Part shown: positions 36,199-46,300 of the stretch, piece after piece | Layout of the letters: each line of letters opens with the position of its first letter | How positions within the stretch are numbered: position 1 is the first letter of the stretch | Assembly (NCBI RefSeq): GCF_900099815.1 | Contig: NZ_FNCW01000012.1 | Location: forward strand, 1 to 64,000 | Direction of reading: 5' to 3' | Origin: Psychroflexus sediminis | GTDB taxonomy: Bacteria; Bacteroidota; Bacteroidia; Flavobacteriales; Flavobacteriaceae | Length of the DNA: 64,000 bases | Position numbers and translations under genes: made by a program | Notes under the pieces: generated by a model | Told to the model about the DNA's origin: nothing | Seen by the model: the letters and a program-made list of their open reading frames with translations, nothing else | The model's database searches: none

Positions 36199-37221
36199 GT
36201 CTGTTTAGAAACTTCATATCGGGAACTTAAAGACTACCCGCACCAGCCTGTATCTTAAGGCACAGGTTATGGATAATCAACTTAGAGTTATGAATTACCC
36301 AAAGCCATATTCAAAACAAATGGCGTACCTAAGGGCACGCTGACTTGGGTTCCGCTTTAAGTTTTACCAATCTATAGTCCCTAACGGGACAGATTAATGT
36401 TTTCGATTTTGAGTAAGTTGATAAAACTTAGAAGTTGAATTGTCGATTTACTTCTCTTGAATTAAATATCAAACTCTGATTATTAGCTTTTGCTTCATCT
36501 GCTTTATGGGTAGAGTTGTCTCGTTAAAGACTTCATATCGGAAAGGAAAAGACTACACGTACGACTTTGTGCCGTTAGGTACAGGATATGGATAATCAAC
36601 TTAGAGTTATGGATTACCCAAAGCAATATTCAAAACATATAGCGTACCTAAAGGCACGCTGGTTCAGTTGACGCGTTAGCTTTTACCAATCTATAGCCCC
36701 TAACGGGACAGGTTACATACTTTTTTAAAGAAGAAGATTTATAGATTTAAAATTGAGTTTAGCTATATAGCTTCAAGGCTTTACATCATAACCTTTTTTA
36801 AAACCTTATGTTGGAATTGTCTGGTTAGAGACTTTATATCGGTAACTTGAAATAGCCCTTTTGACATCTTGTGCCGTTAGGTACAGAATATGAATAGTGA
36901 AGACCTGTCTAAAACATATGGCGTACCTGACAGCACGCTGACTTGAGTTCCGCTCTAGGTTTTACCAATCTATAGTCTCTAGCAGGACAGGTTGAATCAC
37001 AACTGTTTTGAGTGATTTTGTAAATTTTAGGACTCGGATTGATTTACCATTTTAAATCGGTGAATCGAACTTTTATTACAAGTGTTTTGCTTCATCTGAT
37101 CTATGGGTAGAGTTGTCTCGTTAGAGACTTCATATCGGTAAGGAAAAGACTACACGTACGACTTTGTGCCGTTAGGTACAGGATATGTTATATTACTTGT
37201 ATTTTGCTCTTGATGGGACAG
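36199..37221. repeat. Hairpin-repeat array A, four units
   Basis: This 1.1-kb gap has no gene. It holds four copies of a composite repeat at 36199-36392, 36518-36711, 36819-36990 and 37115-37221 (last one truncated), spaced 296-319 bp. Each full unit carries four hairpins: GTCTCGTTAGAGAC followed by TTCATATCGG, then GTGCCGTTAGGTAC, then their inverted relatives GCGTACCTAAGGGCACGC and TACCAATCTATAGTCCCTAACGGGAC split over two cores (CCAATCTATAG and GTCCCTAACGGGAC). So each unit is roughly an inverted repeat built from REP-like palindromes with a GTTA loop. Units 2 and 4 are almost identical for about 100 bp. Confidence 0.85.
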
Positions 37222-38705: not shown

Positions 38706-41057
38706 ATGACTCTATCTCTACGAATTCTTAGTGTGGCACTTCTGGCAAGCCTTAGCGGATTTGCACAATCCGACCTGTCTGTCCAAAAAATCATGCAAGA
38801 TCCCAACTGGATGGGCACATTTCCCTCTGATGTCGCATGGAACGAACAATCCGATGTGATTTACTTTGATTATAATCCGGAACAGGAGGTATCGGATTCG
38901 CTGTATAAAATCAGTTTAAAAAACACTTCTGAAATACAAAAAGTGAGCATGGATGAAATCAAAACAAAAGTTTCATCTAGGGGCGATTATAACGCTAAAC
39001 ACACGGCAAAGCTTTATGTGAAATCAGGCGATTTATACCGCTATGACATCAGGAAAAATCAAACCCATCTGGTTTTGGATTTAGGGGAACGCATCAGCAG
39101 TCCAAAGTTCATCACCGATTCTGAATATGCCTTTATCACTAATAACAATCTCTACATTTATAATGCGGATCAGGGGCAAATTCAGAAAAAAACCAACCTA
39201 CAATCCGGGAGTTCCAAAGACAAAGATTCCAAAAAATCTGAGAAAAATCAATGGCTGGAAGAGGAGAACTTAAGCCTTTTGGAAGAGGTTCGGGTTCAAA
39301 AAGAAAACCGAGAGTTAAGAGAAAAAAACAGAGAATTATTACGAGAAGATTCTTACACGTTTTACCTGGATAAACAAAGAGCTTTCAACTTCAACATTAG
39401 TGAAACAGGTAATTTTTTGACTTTTCAGACCTACACACCAGAGTCTGGAGATAATACGGGAGTCCCCGATTATATCAATGCTTCAGGCTACACCGAAATG
39501 CTCAATGCCAGAAGCAAAGTCGGCGACCAAACCGCACAAAGAGATTTATATATCTATCATATTCAAAAGGATACGGTCTATAAAGTGGATGTGTCTTCCC
39601 TGCCTGGCATCACCGATTTGCCAGAATACACCGAAAACTATCCGGACCGGGAATGGGAAGCAAAGCAGAGGGCGGTAAGCTTTTCGGATGTGAAGTTTTC
39701 ATCCCAGGATGCGCATGCCGTGGTGGCAATAAGAGCACAGGACAACAAAGACCGCTGGATTTCTCTGCTGAATCTGGATACAGGAAGCTTGGAAAATTTA
39801 GATAGACAGCACGACGAAGCCTGGATTGCCGGACCAGGTATTGGCAGTTATTACGGAGGTGGTACATTGGGATGGCTCGCAGACGATAAACACGTCTATT
39901 ACCAGTCTGAAGCCACGGGTTACTCCCATCTTTACCTTCATGATGTTGACAAAAACAAGCAAAAGCAACTGACCAGCGGAAATTACGAAGTCTTTGATCC
40001 GCAATTATCCAGGGATAAGAAATCCTGGTTTTTTACCTCTTCGGAGGTGCATCCCGGGGAACGTCATTTTTACAAAATGCCAGTCATGGGTGGGAATAAA
40101 ACTCAGCTGACCTCTATGGAAGGCAATAATAAGGTGGAACTTTCTCCTGATGAAAAACACATGGCCATCTTGTTTTCCAGTTCAAACACGCCGGAAGAGC
40201 TTTACCTAAAGCCCACCAAAGCAAACGCCAAGGCAAAACAACTCACCGAGGGTCAGTCAGAAGCCTTTAGTGCCTATACCTGGAGAATGCCGGAGCTTAT
40301 ACAGTTTGAAGCTGAAGACGGAGCAAAACCCTATGCCAGGCTTTACAGACCCGAGGAAAGCGTCAATAATCATGCAGCAGTCATTTTTGTACATGGGGCG
40401 GGCTATTTGCAAAACGCCCACAAGTGGTGGTCGAGTTACTTTAGAGAATATATGTTTCATAACCTGTTAACAGACCTGGGTTACACGGTTTTGGATATCG
40501 ATTACCGGGGAAGTGCGGGATATGGCAGAGACTGGCGAACAGGAATCTACCGACATATGGGCGGTAAAGACTTATCTGACCAGGTCGATGGCGCCGAATA
40601 TCTGGTAGAAAACTTTGAGATCAACCCTGATAAAATAGGCATTTATGGAGGAAGTTACGGTGGTTTCATTACCCTGATGGCCATGTTCAACGAGCCAGAT
40701 ACCTTTGCTGCAGGAGCCGCCTTGCGTTCGGTGACCGACTGGGCGCATTATAACCATGGGTATACGTCCAATATTTTGAACGAGCCACATCTGGATCCTA
40801 TCGCCTACAGAAAATCTTCCCCAATTTACTTTGCGGAAGGCCTGGAAGGGCATCTGTTGATCGCTCACGGGATTGTGGATACCAATGTTCATTTTCAGGA
40901 TGTGGTGAGGCTTTCTCAACGGCTTATCGAACTGGAAAAAGAGGACTGGGAACTGGCGGTTTACCCGGTTGAAGGTCACGGTTTCACGCAGCCCAGCAGC
41001 TGGACCGATGAATACCGACGTATCCTCGATCTTTTTGAAAGAACGATTGGAAAATAG
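38706..41057 (+). CDS. S9-family prolyl oligopeptidase (DPP IV-like)
   Basis: A 783-residue exported serine peptidase with a signal peptide (ending near GFAQ, about 21). An N-terminal beta-propeller with a charged helical insert (about 165-215, rich in Glu, Lys and Arg) is followed by an alpha/beta-hydrolase domain. The nucleophile is in GGSYGG (Ser about 650), the Asp in HGIVDTNVHFQD and the His in VEGHGF. Such enzymes trim dipeptides or cleave oligopeptides in the periplasm. It lies between the two hairpin-repeat arrays, transcribed alone. Confidence 0.93.
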   Translation: MTLSLRILSVALLASLSGFAQSDLSVQKIMQDPNWMGTFPSDVAWNEQSDVIYFDYNPEQEVSDSLYKISLKNTSEIQKVSMDEIKTKVSSRGDYNAKHTAKLYVKSGDLYRYDIRKNQTHLVLDLGERISSPKFITDSEYAFITNNNLYIYNADQGQIQKKTNLQSGSSKDKDSKKSEKNQWLEEENLSLLEEVRVQKENRELREKNRELLREDSYTFYLDKQRAFNFNISETGNFLTFQTYTPESGDNTGVPDYINASGYTEMLNARSKVGDQTAQRDLYIYHIQKDTVYKVDVSSLPGITDLPEYTENYPDREWEAKQRAVSFSDVKFSSQDAHAVVAIRAQDNKDRWISLLNLDTGSLENLDRQHDEAWIAGPGIGSYYGGGTLGWLADDKHVYYQSEATGYSHLYLHDVDKNKQKQLTSGNYEVFDPQLSRDKKSWFFTSSEVHPGERHFYKMPVMGGNKTQLTSMEGNNKVELSPDEKHMAILFSSSNTPEELYLKPTKANAKAKQLTEGQSEAFSAYTWRMPELIQFEAEDGAKPYARLYRPEESVNNHAAVIFVHGAGYLQNAHKWWSSYFREYMFHNLLTDLGYTVLDIDYRGSAGYGRDWRTGIYRHMGGKDLSDQVDGAEYLVENFEINPDKIGIYGGSYGGFITLMAMFNEPDTFAAGAALRSVTDWAHYNHGYTSNILNEPHLDPIAYRKSSPIYFAEGLEGHLLIAHGIVDTNVHFQDVVRLSQRLIELEKEDWELAVYPVEGHGFTQPSSWTDEYRRILDLFERTIGK

Positions 41058-41140
41058 AGAGAAGATATTAGATATCAGAAGTTAGATGTAAAGAAGGACA
41101 TTTAGATTCAATAAACAAGAAACAGGATAACATAAACCTT

Positions 41141-41794
41141 ACAAATCATATCGTGTACCTAATGGCACACTGGCTGGGTTACATTTTGTTTTTACCAATG
41201 GATAGTCCCTAGCGGGACAGGTGAAATGTTTCTGTTTTTAAACAAGTTAATGAGATTAAGAACTTGAGTTGTTGATAAACTTATCTTGAATTAATTCATC
41301 AAGCTTTGATGATAAGAGCTTTTTTATTGTTAGAATTGTCTCGTTAGAGACTTTAAATCGGTAACTTTGGAAACACCCTATACCATCAAGTGCCTTTAGG
41401 TACTTGATATGTACAATCCAAAACGGCACTCCCACATGCATATGGCGTACCTAAGGGCACGCTGGCTCAGGTAACGCTTTAGGTTTTACCAATGGATAGT
41501 TCCTAAGGGGACAGGTTTTATGTTTTTAGTCCAAGCCTTTGAGTTTTAGTTTTGGTTTGGCGTTGACTTTAGAAAAAGAAAAACTGCCTTTTAAAAAGTA
41601 GTTTTGGTCGTTTGATTTTTTGTCTCGTTAGAGACTTTATATCGGTAACTTGAAAAAGACCCTGTCAATACTGTGCCTTTAGGTACAGGATATGAATAAC
41701 CTGAATGAACACTTCAAACATATAGCGTACCTAAGGGCACGCTGGCTTAGGTAAAGGTTTAGCTTTTACCAATGGATAGTCCCTAACGGGACAG
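41141..41794. repeat. Hairpin-repeat array B, three units
   Basis: Same repeat family as array A: a right half at 41141-41220 and two full units at 41338-41514 and 41622-41794 (period 284 bp). Cores GTCTCGTTAGAGAC, GTGCCTTTAGGTAC, GCGTACCTAAGGGCACGC and GTCCCTAACGGGAC are all present, with small sequence drift. The spacer between half-unit and unit 6 resembles the one in array A. No gene is seen from 41058 to 41896. Confidence 0.85.
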
Positions 41795-41896
41795 GTTGTA
41801 CGTTTTTTTTAAGTCCAAGTCTTAGCATTGGGCTTGATGTTGACTTTAGAAATAAGAAAAACCGTCTTGATAGGCGGTTTAAATTAAAATTCTGGA

Positions 41897-42058
41897 TTAT
41901 TTTTTCAATTTCACAGTAAGAACAATTAAAATCATAGAAGTTGCATACATGGCATAAGTAAACCAGATGCTAAGATTATAATCCGTTAAATATTTCAAGT
42001 AAAGTATTAATGAGATTATAATAATGCAAACTAGAATTAAAAATTTAATTAGAGTCAT
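41897..42058 (-). CDS. 53-residue two-helix membrane protein, possible immunity protein
   Basis: The frame starts with an ATG overlapping the stop of the double-glycine peptide gene (ATGA at 42055-42058), so its translation is coupled to it. It has two hydrophobic helices (about 4-20 and 31-47) joined by KYLTDYN and ends in a basic tail (KLKK). Size and topology match small bacteriocin-immunity membrane proteins, but no family is recognised. Function is inferred from coupling only. Confidence 0.65.
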   Translation of the reverse strand: MTLIKFLILVCIIIISLILYLKYLTDYNLSIWFTYAMYATSMILIVLTVKLKK

Positions 42059-42201
42059 GCCATTTCATTGATTATGCACGATGCTTCTATTGCTAATAAT
42101 GCAATTCCTCCTAAACTAGCTATTGCTAAGCCACATATTATGTCACCGCCATCAAGTCCTCCATGCATATTCTCCATCTGAGTTAATTCTAAATTTTTCA
42201 T
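42055..42201 (-). CDS. Double-glycine leader, bacteriocin-like peptide
   Basis: A 48-residue peptide from the ATG at 42201 (an ATG two codons upstream is possible, and the frame is open to 42279). The leader MKNLELTQMENMHGG has the typical Leu/Glu/Met pattern of GG leaders cut by C39 peptidase ABC exporters; a second GG follows (GLDGG). The core after GG is DIICGLAIASLGGIALLAI and then EASCIINEMA: a small, hydrophobic, Gly/Ala-rich segment with two Cys 19 residues apart, similar in style to class IIb (lactobin/cerein-like) peptides of Bacteroidota. No exporter gene is adjacent; only a relic exists at 26.2 kb. The next gene is coupled by ATGA overlap. Confidence 0.75.
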   Translation of the reverse strand: MKNLELTQMENMHGGLDGGDIICGLAIASLGGIALLAIEASCIINEMA

Positions 42202-42232
42202 AATCATAAGTATTAAGATAAAGCCAAGCAAG

Positions 42233-42323
42233 TGCCGAGCAAAACTCGAGCATCCTCGAAAACCTACGGAAATTTTCAATTTCCTGGTTTTCGGGATTTG
42301 TGAGATTTAAAATTGTGCTCGAC
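42233..42323. repeat. About 90-bp imperfect palindrome
   Basis: The inner stem (42257-42293) pairs CGAAAACC and GGAAATT with AATTTCC and GGTTTTCG, leaving a 3-nt bulge on one side, 1 nt on the other and a 3-nt loop. Outer arms GCCGAGCA (42235-42242) and TGCTCGAC (42316-42323) pair with one mismatch. GTTAGCT follows directly. It lies just upstream of the GG-peptide gene and may be a leader structure, a MITE end or an attC-like site. Confidence 0.6.
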
Positions 42324-42358
42324 GTTAGCTAGATTAAGCCTAATTAATCTGGGGAATT

Positions 42359-42424
42359 GTCCCGACAGGGACTTTATATAAATGGCTTCTGTTTTTAGTT
42401 ATAGATAGTCTTATTCTGGACATT
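42359..42424. repeat. Degenerate hairpin-repeat unit
   Basis: GTCCCGACAGGGAC followed by TTTATATAAATGG, and later a partial closing half ending TCTGGACA. A decayed member of the family in arrays A and B, placed between the GG-peptide locus and ppx. Confidence 0.6.
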
Positions 42425-42472
42425 AAAACATATTTTAAGTGAATGCTAAACTAGGATGATATTTATCTCAGT

Positions 42473-44059
42473 CTATGGTGTTGTTTTTTCTTCCGCCTGA
42501 AAAACTTTTATTGTTTTCCCGATTAATTTTTCTAGGAGATCCGCTTTGCGTAGAGTTCCCCAGATCTCAAGTTCAGGGTCTGCCTGGGTCGTGATACGCA
42601 GGTGGACGGTTTCATCTTTATGCTCGATTTCCAGTTTTTGGACATTTTGATAATGACTTCTATCCAGACCATCGGCGATCCTTAAGATTGCTGACAGCTT
42701 TTTAACTCGGTTTCGGTTGGCTTTGTTGAGTTTTCTGTACCGCTTATGGCGCTTATGCGGTGCAGATTTTCTATGATACCGGGCTACATTGGCCATTATA
42801 TTGATTTCATCCTCTTTAAACCCAAGCAAATCTGAATATCGTATGAGATAAAGCGCATGCTTATGGTGCTTTCGGTAAGAGATATAATAACCGATATCAT
42901 GCAGTAAAGCCGCAAATTCCAACAACTCCCTGTCTGATTCCTCTAATTTTAATTCTTGCTTAAATTCATCAAAAAGTTGAAGCGCAAAACGAGCAACATG
43001 CTGGGAATGTGCTTCCGCCCAGTTGCATTTACGAAGTAATTCAAAAACACTTCGTCGGCGTGGATCTTTGAAATTGGCGACGAGGTCCAGGTTAAGTTGT
43101 TCTTTTTTGTTAGTGATAAAATTCATGATCATCCCTTCCCTGAGGGCGGCTTCTGATATTTTAAATGTTTCAAGTTTAAGCTCATCCACAAGAAAATTCA
43201 CTAAAACCATCCCAGGATTAATGATATCAACTCTTTTCTCTTCTAAGCCTTTTTGATCAAGTCGTTGGCTTTTATCCAGTTTGATAAAGTTGGTGTATAA
43301 GTCCTTAAAATCAACAGTGCTAAATTCAAGTTCATTTAGACTCATCTTGGTTGGAAGGGAGTTTTTATGGGCAACCATTTCGGCTATATTTTCCATTGTT
43401 CCAGAAGAGCCAATGATGGTTTTTACATGATGTTCTTTGGCCAGTTTTAAGACTTCGGCAAGTTCCTCTCTATAGTGCTTTTGTAAGTGATCAATATCTT
43501 TGTCTTCAATTGGGTCTGAATTTACAAAGGCAGCAGCCATACGAGCTACCCCCAGTTTTAAACTATTATAATAGATAAACTTCTGATTATTGCCAATGAT
43601 AAATTCAACACTTCCACCACCGATATCGGCCATAAGCACCATTTCATCTTTTAAATCAATACTGTATCTAATGGCTATACCGATCAATTCGGCCTCCATC
43701 TTTCCAGAAATAGCCCGAATCCTAATCCCTGTTTCTTCTTCAGCCTCTTCAATAAAATCACCTCCATTTTCAGCTTCCCGAATAGCACTCGTGGCATAGG
43801 CCAGAATAGTCTCGACATGATGGCTGTCGCACAAAAACTTTATTCTTTTCAGCGCTTCTAATCCACGATCCATAGCCTCGCGACTTAATCTGTCTTCCAG
43901 TCCCTTTTCAGCGAGGATAACCATTTCTTTAAGCTTATTTACTGTACGGAAACTACCATCGGGATAAATGTCTACCAGAACGGCATGAAAAGAGTTGGTG
44001 CCCAGGTCTATGGCGGCAATGCGCTTGGTAGCATCAGAATTAGAAGAATTGTCGCTCAT
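42473..44059 (-). CDS. Ppx/GppA phosphatase with HD domain
   Basis: A 528-residue exopolyphosphatase / pppGpp phosphatase-type enzyme. The ASKHA domain shows IAAIDLGTNSFHAVLVDI, the EAELIG segment and ADIGGGSVEF. The C-terminal part is an HD-type domain with LLHDIGYYISYRKHHKHA (HD plus further His). Substrates in the family are polyphosphate and guanosine pentaphosphate; which one applies here cannot be told. Transcribed alone on the minus strand. Confidence 0.9.
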   Translation of the reverse strand: MSDNSSNSDATKRIAAIDLGTNSFHAVLVDIYPDGSFRTVNKLKEMVILAEKGLEDRLSREAMDRGLEALKRIKFLCDSHHVETILAYATSAIREAENGGDFIEEAEEETGIRIRAISGKMEAELIGIAIRYSIDLKDEMVLMADIGGGSVEFIIGNNQKFIYYNSLKLGVARMAAAFVNSDPIEDKDIDHLQKHYREELAEVLKLAKEHHVKTIIGSSGTMENIAEMVAHKNSLPTKMSLNELEFSTVDFKDLYTNFIKLDKSQRLDQKGLEEKRVDIINPGMVLVNFLVDELKLETFKISEAALREGMIMNFITNKKEQLNLDLVANFKDPRRRSVFELLRKCNWAEAHSQHVARFALQLFDEFKQELKLEESDRELLEFAALLHDIGYYISYRKHHKHALYLIRYSDLLGFKEDEINIMANVARYHRKSAPHKRHKRYRKLNKANRNRVKKLSAILRIADGLDRSHYQNVQKLEIEHKDETVHLRITTQADPELEIWGTLRKADLLEKLIGKTIKVFQAEEKTTP

Positions 44060-44245: not shown

Positions 44246-46300
44246 TTACCAAATTCTGACTCTTTCCTCCGGAGCGATATAAAGGTCATCTCCTTCCTGT
44301 ATGTCAAAAGCTTCATAGAAGGCATCGACATTTTGTAGGGGCACGTAAGCTCTGTACTGTCCAGGAGAGTGCGGATCTGTTTTGACCTGAGTTCTCAAAG
44401 CTTCATCTCTTATTTTGGTTCTCCAGACGGTTGCCCAGGAGACAAAGAAGCGCTGCTCTGGTGTAAAGCTATCAATTTTCCCTGGCTTTTCTTCGTTTTC
44501 ATAGTGCAACATCAGTCCGTCGTAAGCCCCTAACACACCACCTAAGTCCCCTATGTTTTCTCCTAAGGTAAACTTGCCGTTGATGTAGACACTGTCCAGG
44601 ACCTCAATGCTGCTGTAAAGGGCAGCCAAATCGTTTCCGCGTTCCGTGAATTTTTCTAAATCTTCATCCGTCCACCAGTTTTTAAGGTTTCCTTCGGCAT
44701 CAAATCTGGCACCACTGTCATCAAAGGCATGAGAAATTTCATGTCCAATAACGGCGCCAATTCCACCGTAATTGACAGCAGCATCTGCCCTGTAATCGTA
44801 AAAAGGCGGCTGTAAGATAGCTGCAGGGAATACAATCTCGTTAAATAAGGGATTGAAGTAAGCATTCACCGTTTGTGGCGACATCCCCCACTCTTTTTTG
44901 TCTACCGGCTTTCCTATTTTACTTAGGTTATCCTTATAATTCCACAGTCCAACGGCCTGCATGTTTTCGTAATAGGTGTTTTCTGAGGTTACTTCCAGAT
45001 CGCTGTAATCTTTAAACTCGTCTGGATAGCCAATTTTCACTGTGAATTTATTCAGTTTTTCAACGGCCTGAGTTTTGGTCGAATCCTGCATCCATTCCAG
45101 ATTCTGAATTCTACTTTGAAAAGCCGTAATAACGTTAGCAACCATTTTTTCCGCTTTTTCCTTGGCTTCCGGCGGAAACTTTTGATCCACATAAAGCTTA
45201 CCTACAGCTTCACCAATTGTTCCGTTTACCACGGAGAGCGCCCTTTCTTCCAAAGGTCTCTGGGCTTTAGCACCACTTAAGGTTTTGCTGTAAAATTCCC
45301 AGTTGGTTCTGGCAATTTCAGTAGATAATTGATTGGCTGAGTCATGGATAGTTGACCACATCATCAAGGTTTTGAGGTCATCTAAAGAGGTTTCCTCTAC
45401 TATAAAATCTAAGGCTTCCATGTATTTTGGCTCCATAACCAGGACCGTATCCGGTAATTTTTCAACTCCAAGATCTGTCATAAACTTCTTTAAGTCAATA
45501 TTTTTAGTGACTTCGTCAAGATCATTAACAGCATAACGGTTATTGAAATTTCTAAAATCTCTTCGGGCAACTTTATCCAGTCTTGGACCGGCAAGTTGTG
45601 TTTCCAATTTTAAAACCGTTTCTGCTTTAAATTTCGCATCTTCTTTTGAGCCGCCGAAATACGAAAGCATTTTCACGATATGATCCTTGTATTGTTCTCT
45701 TATCTCTTTAGATTTTTCATCTGTATCGAGATAGTAATCCCTGTCTGGCAAGCCCAAACTTCCTGTGCCTACGTAAGCGATATTGGTGTTACTGTCGTTG
45801 GGATCCGAATAAGCAGAAACCCCAAAAAACGGCGAAGAAATCGCTGTAGGATATTCAGCTAAAAGTTTTTGGATTTCCTCTTTGCTTTGTATTTCTTCTA
45901 TACGATCCAATTTATCCATGATAGGATCAATTCCTGCCACGTTTCTCGAAACGGTGTCTAATATTGAATTGAAAACAGCGATGGCTTTGCCCTGATCTGA
46001 TGTTTTAGGATACTTGCCAGATTCCTCGGCAGTTTTTAAAATGTCTAGAACATCGGTGTCTGTGGATTTTCTTAAAATCTGAAATCCTCCCCACGAGGTC
46101 CTGTCGTCTGGAATTTCTGCCTCTTTCATCCAGCCTCCATTCACATAAGAGTAAAAATCATCTTGTGGATTCACAGTGGTATCCATGTATTGGATGGTAA
46201 TACCTTGGCTCTCGTCCAAAGATTCATTTTTGGAATCCTGACACGAAAAAAACAATGTTGAAGCGCCAATGGCTACAAACATCAATTTTAATTTATTCAT
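44246..46300 (-). CDS. M13-family zinc metallopeptidase lipoprotein
   Basis: A 684-residue neprilysin-like peptidase with a lipoprotein signal (FFSCQD, Cys about 20). An N-terminal helical M13 domain (about 40-420) is followed by the catalytic domain: VNAYFNP, VIGHEISHAFDD (HExxH), GARFDAEGNL and the third ligand region ENIGDLGG. The end VRIW fits the family. Probably degrades oligopeptides at the outer membrane. Downstream of two small exported protein genes with a gap of 53 bp, so possibly the last gene of that operon. Confidence 0.94.
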   Translation of the reverse strand: MNKLKLMFVAIGASTLFFSCQDSKNESLDESQGITIQYMDTTVNPQDDFYSYVNGGWMKEAEIPDDRTSWGGFQILRKSTDTDVLDILKTAEESGKYPKTSDQGKAIAVFNSILDTVSRNVAGIDPIMDKLDRIEEIQSKEEIQKLLAEYPTAISSPFFGVSAYSDPNDSNTNIAYVGTGSLGLPDRDYYLDTDEKSKEIREQYKDHIVKMLSYFGGSKEDAKFKAETVLKLETQLAGPRLDKVARRDFRNFNNRYAVNDLDEVTKNIDLKKFMTDLGVEKLPDTVLVMEPKYMEALDFIVEETSLDDLKTLMMWSTIHDSANQLSTEIARTNWEFYSKTLSGAKAQRPLEERALSVVNGTIGEAVGKLYVDQKFPPEAKEKAEKMVANVITAFQSRIQNLEWMQDSTKTQAVEKLNKFTVKIGYPDEFKDYSDLEVTSENTYYENMQAVGLWNYKDNLSKIGKPVDKKEWGMSPQTVNAYFNPLFNEIVFPAAILQPPFYDYRADAAVNYGGIGAVIGHEISHAFDDSGARFDAEGNLKNWWTDEDLEKFTERGNDLAALYSSIEVLDSVYINGKFTLGENIGDLGGVLGAYDGLMLHYENEEKPGKIDSFTPEQRFFVSWATVWRTKIRDEALRTQVKTDPHSPGQYRAYVPLQNVDAFYEAFDIQEGDDLYIAPEERVRIW

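Follow-up and report, generated by a model that had tools for sequence, protein, structure and literature searches.

We analysed a 64,000-nucleotide stretch of the Psychroflexus sediminis genome (the window; contig NZ_FNCW01000012.1, positions 1 to 64,000) that carries a two-gene cassette between genes for Peptidase_S9 and Ppx/GppA proteins, with an M13 peptidase gene after the latter (Table 1). The initial annotation had located both cassette frames correctly, leaving the strand unstated, and its account of a 48-residue peptide with two Cys in the core, an ATGA overlap and a 53-residue second frame with a Lys tail was accurate; the second product ends in KLKK.

Table 1. Features of the cassette and its flanks in the window
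Feature	Position	Strand	Description and basis
Double-glycine precursor peptide, 48 residues	42055..42201	-	15-residue leader and 33-residue core with two Cys; frame reading, genus relatives, third-position bias relative to P. tropicus homologue
Hydrophobic frame with Lys tail, putative immunity protein, 53 residues	41897..42058	-	Overlaps peptide stop via ATGA; position, two hydrophobic segments, recurrence of similar frames beside such peptides
Conserved cassette upstream block, ACTTGCTTGGC... to ATG	42202..42233	-	Alignment of seven Psychroflexus cassettes
Stem-loop then T run, 3' of partner frame	41859..41880	-	RNA fold
Peptidase_S9 gene	38706-41057	+	Flanks cassette
Ppx/GppA gene	42473-44059	-	Flanks cassette on other side
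M13 peptidase gene	44246-46300	-	Comes after Ppx/GppA gene

The 15-residue double-glycine leader of the peptide, MKNLELTQMENMHGG, is common to its relatives in the genus. Over the first 31 codons the peptide gene and its P. tropicus homologue differ at 15 nucleotides, 13 of them at third positions, and these differences change five amino acids, against a mean of 10.05 when the mutations are randomly re-placed (fraction with five or fewer, 0.0012). On the strength of this third-position bias and the few amino-acid changes, the peptide gene is more than a chance frame. Beyond these codons the two peptides diverge, and they are 48 and 65 residues long. At E <= 1 the peptide was matched in 7 of 27 Psychroflexus genomes, the window genome included. 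The P. tropicus match (G026) has an E value of 5.4e-13; the best values in the remaining five genomes range from 0.0016 to 0.63, the leader accounting for most of the similarity. Alignment likewise gives common leaders and differing cores, and one relative (G015) has lost the ATG of the leader. When the peptide pattern was run against public genome contigs, 475 candidate stretches came down to a single relative, again P. tropicus.

At 33 residues, the core is the shortest among 22 peptides with the leader pattern (range 33-59), 18 of which have exactly two core Cys. We rejected the idea that a nonsense mutation simply shortened a longer core, since no core carries on in the frames past the stop; the core more likely underwent an internal deletion or recombination. 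A profile search finds one such peptide in the window genome; G007, G003, G377 and G128 have two each. AlphaFold2, run on the single sequence, models the peptide as one helix (residues 18-47, pLDDT 61).

The peptide gene ends in ATGA, the ATG of which is the start of the 53-residue partner frame. The initial annotation called this partner a two-helix protein. Hydropathy bears out two hydrophobic segments, but the single-sequence AlphaFold2 model is one continuous helix over residues 2-52 (pLDDT 90.9) with no hairpin. In the 27 genus genomes the partner matches only itself, the next best hit having an E value of 0.09. Its support is thus position, hydropathy and the association described below, and it is less secure as a gene than the peptide. 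Neither product reaches an NCBIfam or Pfam family cut-off; sub-threshold hits (daptide, GvpA, BlyA holin, MgrB, DUF805 and others) were set aside as chance.

About 32 nucleotides 5' of the ATG, together with the leader codons, are strongly similar in seven Psychroflexus cassettes, and the conserved block is probably a promoter or 5' region. The stem-loop behind the partner is a possible terminator: the fold of 41850-41896 on the minus strand has an energy of -6.2 kcal/mol (z -2.18), with 6 of 200 shuffles equally or more stable. A promoter and terminator scan of 41800-42480 does not list this stem-loop; it gives two promoter-like sites (shuffle mean 3.0) and two terminator-like sites (shuffle mean 0.3), neither of the latter behind the partner. 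Rfam has no match within 41060-42480.

We compared the chromosomal site across the genus, using the 18 of 27 genomes in which the Peptidase_S9 gene was located. The leader occurs within 1.5 kb downstream of this gene in four of them (the window genome, G026, G007 and G010). G003 has an intact pair behind the M13 gene near a contig end; a second, degenerate copy lies past ppx where another contig begins, an arrangement which suggests that these copies mark the same site, split by the assembly. The site in G002 holds small two-segment frames and what read as peptide remnants. No cassette was seen there in G008, G025 or G004, and the other nine genomes have no leader match and differ in their downstream genes. 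Cassettes in G009 and G015 lie elsewhere, away from the S9 site. Also in G003, a tandem series of four small hydrophobic frames (L028, 7004-8387), among which no double-glycine peptide was recognised, is possibly an immunity-only array.

Some relatives have more complete loci. At the same site as in the window, G007 encodes a 210-residue membrane protein with four segments by hydropathy count and no family hit, a 175-residue protein above the cut-off for both AhpC-TSA and Thioredoxin_2, a 722-residue C39 ABC exporter, two double-glycine peptides and a 50-residue frame ending in YKKK. Family searches covered the proteins of G007; by content, G149, G029, G377 and G128 each have a membrane protein, a thioredoxin-like frame, a C39 exporter and a small partner. 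The peptide profile matched in 13 of 397 family genomes at E <= 0.1, among them the window genome and G003. In a class-wide draw, 16 of 395 genomes matched at E <= 0.01, several of these matches being to peptides of other types or within long frames that are unrelated. One genome of this draw (G798) has two double-glycine peptides, a 57-residue frame ending in KKKE, a membrane protein and a thioredoxin-like frame. In G122 (L062, 8004-9235), four small membrane-protein frames, beginning with one of 133 residues, come after a single double-glycine peptide.

The pairing of peptide and small membrane protein recurs in relatives, in some cases beside a peptide-export module. For this reason a bacteriocin with its immunity protein is the best reading of the cassette, and one that the genomic context supports. 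In such a system a C39-peptidase ABC exporter would cut the peptide after the GG, and the mature peptide would probably be oxidised to one disulfide, act on the membranes of related bacteria and presumably kill them; the producer would be shielded by the small membrane protein, translated from the same mRNA. The case for bacteriocin activity of the window copy itself is weaker than that for the kind of cassette to which it is assigned.

The initial annotation observed that no exporter is adjacent and proposed either a distant exporter or an orphan state. Indeed, no exporter was seen among the frames listed for 36-48 kb of the window. The single C39 exporter that the window genome does encode lies on contig C26, next to genes for an HlyD-like adaptor and a double-glycine peptide. 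This exporter and adaptor could process and export the window peptide at a distance, giving a working bacteriocin, and the constraint on the peptide would fit such service. We regard this as unlikely. The C26 exporter is of another type, only 29% identical to that of G007, whereas the exporters of G149, G377, G029 and G128 share 56-64% identity with the G007 one, and the peptide beside the C26 exporter has a 22-residue leader of a sequence unlike that of the cassette. Moreover, a C39 domain is present in 5 of the 27 Psychroflexus genomes and in three of the seven that bear peptides; G026, G009, G010 and G015 (the last 79% complete) have peptides and no C39 match at E <= 1e-5. Of the 27 genus genomes, one has a match to the membrane protein of the G007 module, and the window genome has none. 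Given this restricted distribution and the low identity of the C26 exporter, the evidence leans towards an export orphan. On balance we slightly favour the view that the locus is an export-orphaned cassette of class II bacteriocin-like type, consisting of a peptide and an immunity-like partner. It occupies a recurrently used site in the genus, is most likely now without any matching export module, and may be kept for immunity or be on its way to decay.

The double-glycine peptide on contig C26 contains a YYGNG stretch and lies near the C39 exporter of the window genome; a CAAX-type protease gene comes after it (region L023, 12034-13224).

We next consider the association of such peptides with small membrane proteins. 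A partner was defined as a frame of 40-150 residues with two hydrophobic segments that starts between -20 and 120 nucleotides downstream of the peptide. Such a frame lies 3' of the peptide in 10 of 18 peptide runs, drawn from 16 loci in Flavobacteriaceae, compared with 5 of 209 control ORFs at least 150 residues long (one-sided Fisher p 1.4e-9, a value that overstates the case since the runs are related and include the window, without which the count is 9 of 17). The first version of the test gave 10 of 18 against 8 of 209, and the helix counter and shorter distance were chosen after seeing this result. Three loci (L029, L069 and L071) have no peptide under the leader pattern and fall outside the 18 runs.

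Alternatively, the peptide may be an orphan, and the hydrophobic frame after it may have arisen by chance in AT-rich DNA or be unrelated, in which case it would have no immunity role or would not be a gene. Consistent with this, the partner has no homologue in the 27 genus genomes, and such a frame is missing from 8 of 18 runs and present at 5 of 209 control ORFs. The initial annotation set as a check that the same 53-residue frame, with the same overlap, should lie beside homologous peptides, and this strict form failed: partner sequences differ among the ten positive runs, two being 132-133 residues long; the -4 spacing of the ATGA overlap is found only in the window, the others being 9 to 75 nucleotides; and the partner-like frame of one P. 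tropicus run, behind the homologous peptide, is interrupted by a stop. The remaining runs without a partner are one in G010, where a 50-residue hydrophobic frame falls outside the definition, one in G098, where transport-type genes come next, two in G046 with larger neighbours, one in G028 with an 82-residue frame and one strong segment, and one each in G145 and G414, with four-Cys peptides. Nevertheless, the association lies far above the control level, the two window frames are coupled by ATGA, and partners of similar size with a Lys tail occur at complete loci, for example in G007 and G377, so that a non-immunity or non-gene partner appears quite improbable. The pairing of a bacteriocin with an immunity protein thus stands for the kind of cassette, by its repetition in relatives, but not as one conserved partner with a fixed overlap.

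The double-glycine peptides of G145 (L067, 8848-9030) and G414 (L068, 9341-9502) are bacteroidetocin-like in their four Cys; downstream come a roughly 300-residue protein and a C39 exporter, and no two-segment partner is present.

Bacteroidetocin loci, as described in PMC6671954, comprise a five-TM protein, the peptide, a thiol oxidoreductase and a C39-type ABC exporter. The peptides, according to two reports, have a leader of 15-16 residues ending in GG, four Cys and a mature length of 42-53 residues (PMC6671954, PMC8546649). The window shares with them the phylum Bacteroidota and a 15-residue double-glycine leader; its relatives additionally share, at the level of gene content, a membrane protein, a thiol oxidoreductase-like protein and a C39-type ABC exporter. 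However, the window core has two Cys and 33 residues, and the four-gene region is absent from the window locus, comparable content being found in G007. The window also has a linked putative immunity gene, and its relatives often have two peptides, whereas PMC6671954 reports that no immunity protein was found for bacteroidetocins and that producers inhibit themselves.

The cassette also resembles class IIb two-peptide bacteriocins (the Gram-positive lactobin A/cerein 7B family, TIGR03949) in its double-glycine leader, hydrophobic Gly-rich core with small-xxx-small motifs and small putative TM immunity protein, and its relatives in their tandem peptides; among two-peptide bacteriocins, the number of TM segments in the immunity protein can range from one to four (PMC6957408). 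It differs in having one peptide where two adjacent ones are expected. A third parallel is the pneumococcal blp locus, in which, according to PMC4860687, double-glycine-leader bacteriocins and small membrane immunity genes vary at one locus and the transporter gene blpA has a frequency of 0.249 against 0.991 for blpC. The present cassettes belong to another phylum, no quorum-sensing genes were recognised at them, and our comparison covers 27 genomes. Neither TIGR03949 nor the rSAM-modified double-glycine peptide model TIGR04149 hits the window peptide; the relatives G149 and G003 score 13.8 bits (cut-off 21.5) and 13.5 bits (cut-off 25), respectively. No entry listed in our searches of open-licence papers describes an arrangement of this kind.

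Double-glycine leaders also serve peptide signals. That the product is a secreted signal, as BlpC is described to be in PMC4860687, or some other non-killing peptide is very unlikely: the cores are hydrophobic, Gly/Ala-rich, two-Cys and strongly variable, often come in tandem pairs, and no sensor-kinase and regulator pair was recognised among the frames listed near the cassettes of the window and G007.

Extending the bacteriocin and immunity reading beyond the window, we tentatively propose, as a possibility short of even probability, a Flavobacteriaceae family of two-Cys, often two-peptide bacteriocins exported by a bacteroidetocin-type module and, in contrast to bacteroidetocins, paired with dedicated small membrane immunity proteins. 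Psychroflexus cassettes would have come loose from the exporter and be turning over at one hotspot, leaving exporter-less and immunity-only genomes protected without producing. The broad kind is already known, class II bacteriocin potential having been reported to extend to Bacteroidota (PMC12648078). If correct, our proposal would define a sister group of the bacteroidetocins with a linked small membrane protein and make class II immunity testable in a Gram-negative setting, and copies lacking an exporter would provide natural examples of protected non-producers.

The DNA beside the cassette also contains three copies of a REP-like repeat (41146-41830; unit ACCAATGGATAGTCCCTA(A/G)CGGGACAGG), about 280-294 bp apart, with two weaker copies near 36.5 kb (36366-36393 and 36685-36712). 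The unit has five matches in the window and none in 100 shuffles. At the same chromosomal site, G004 carries an IS200-like Y1 transposase gene (PF01797; L093, 7759-8220), which may be linked to these repeats.
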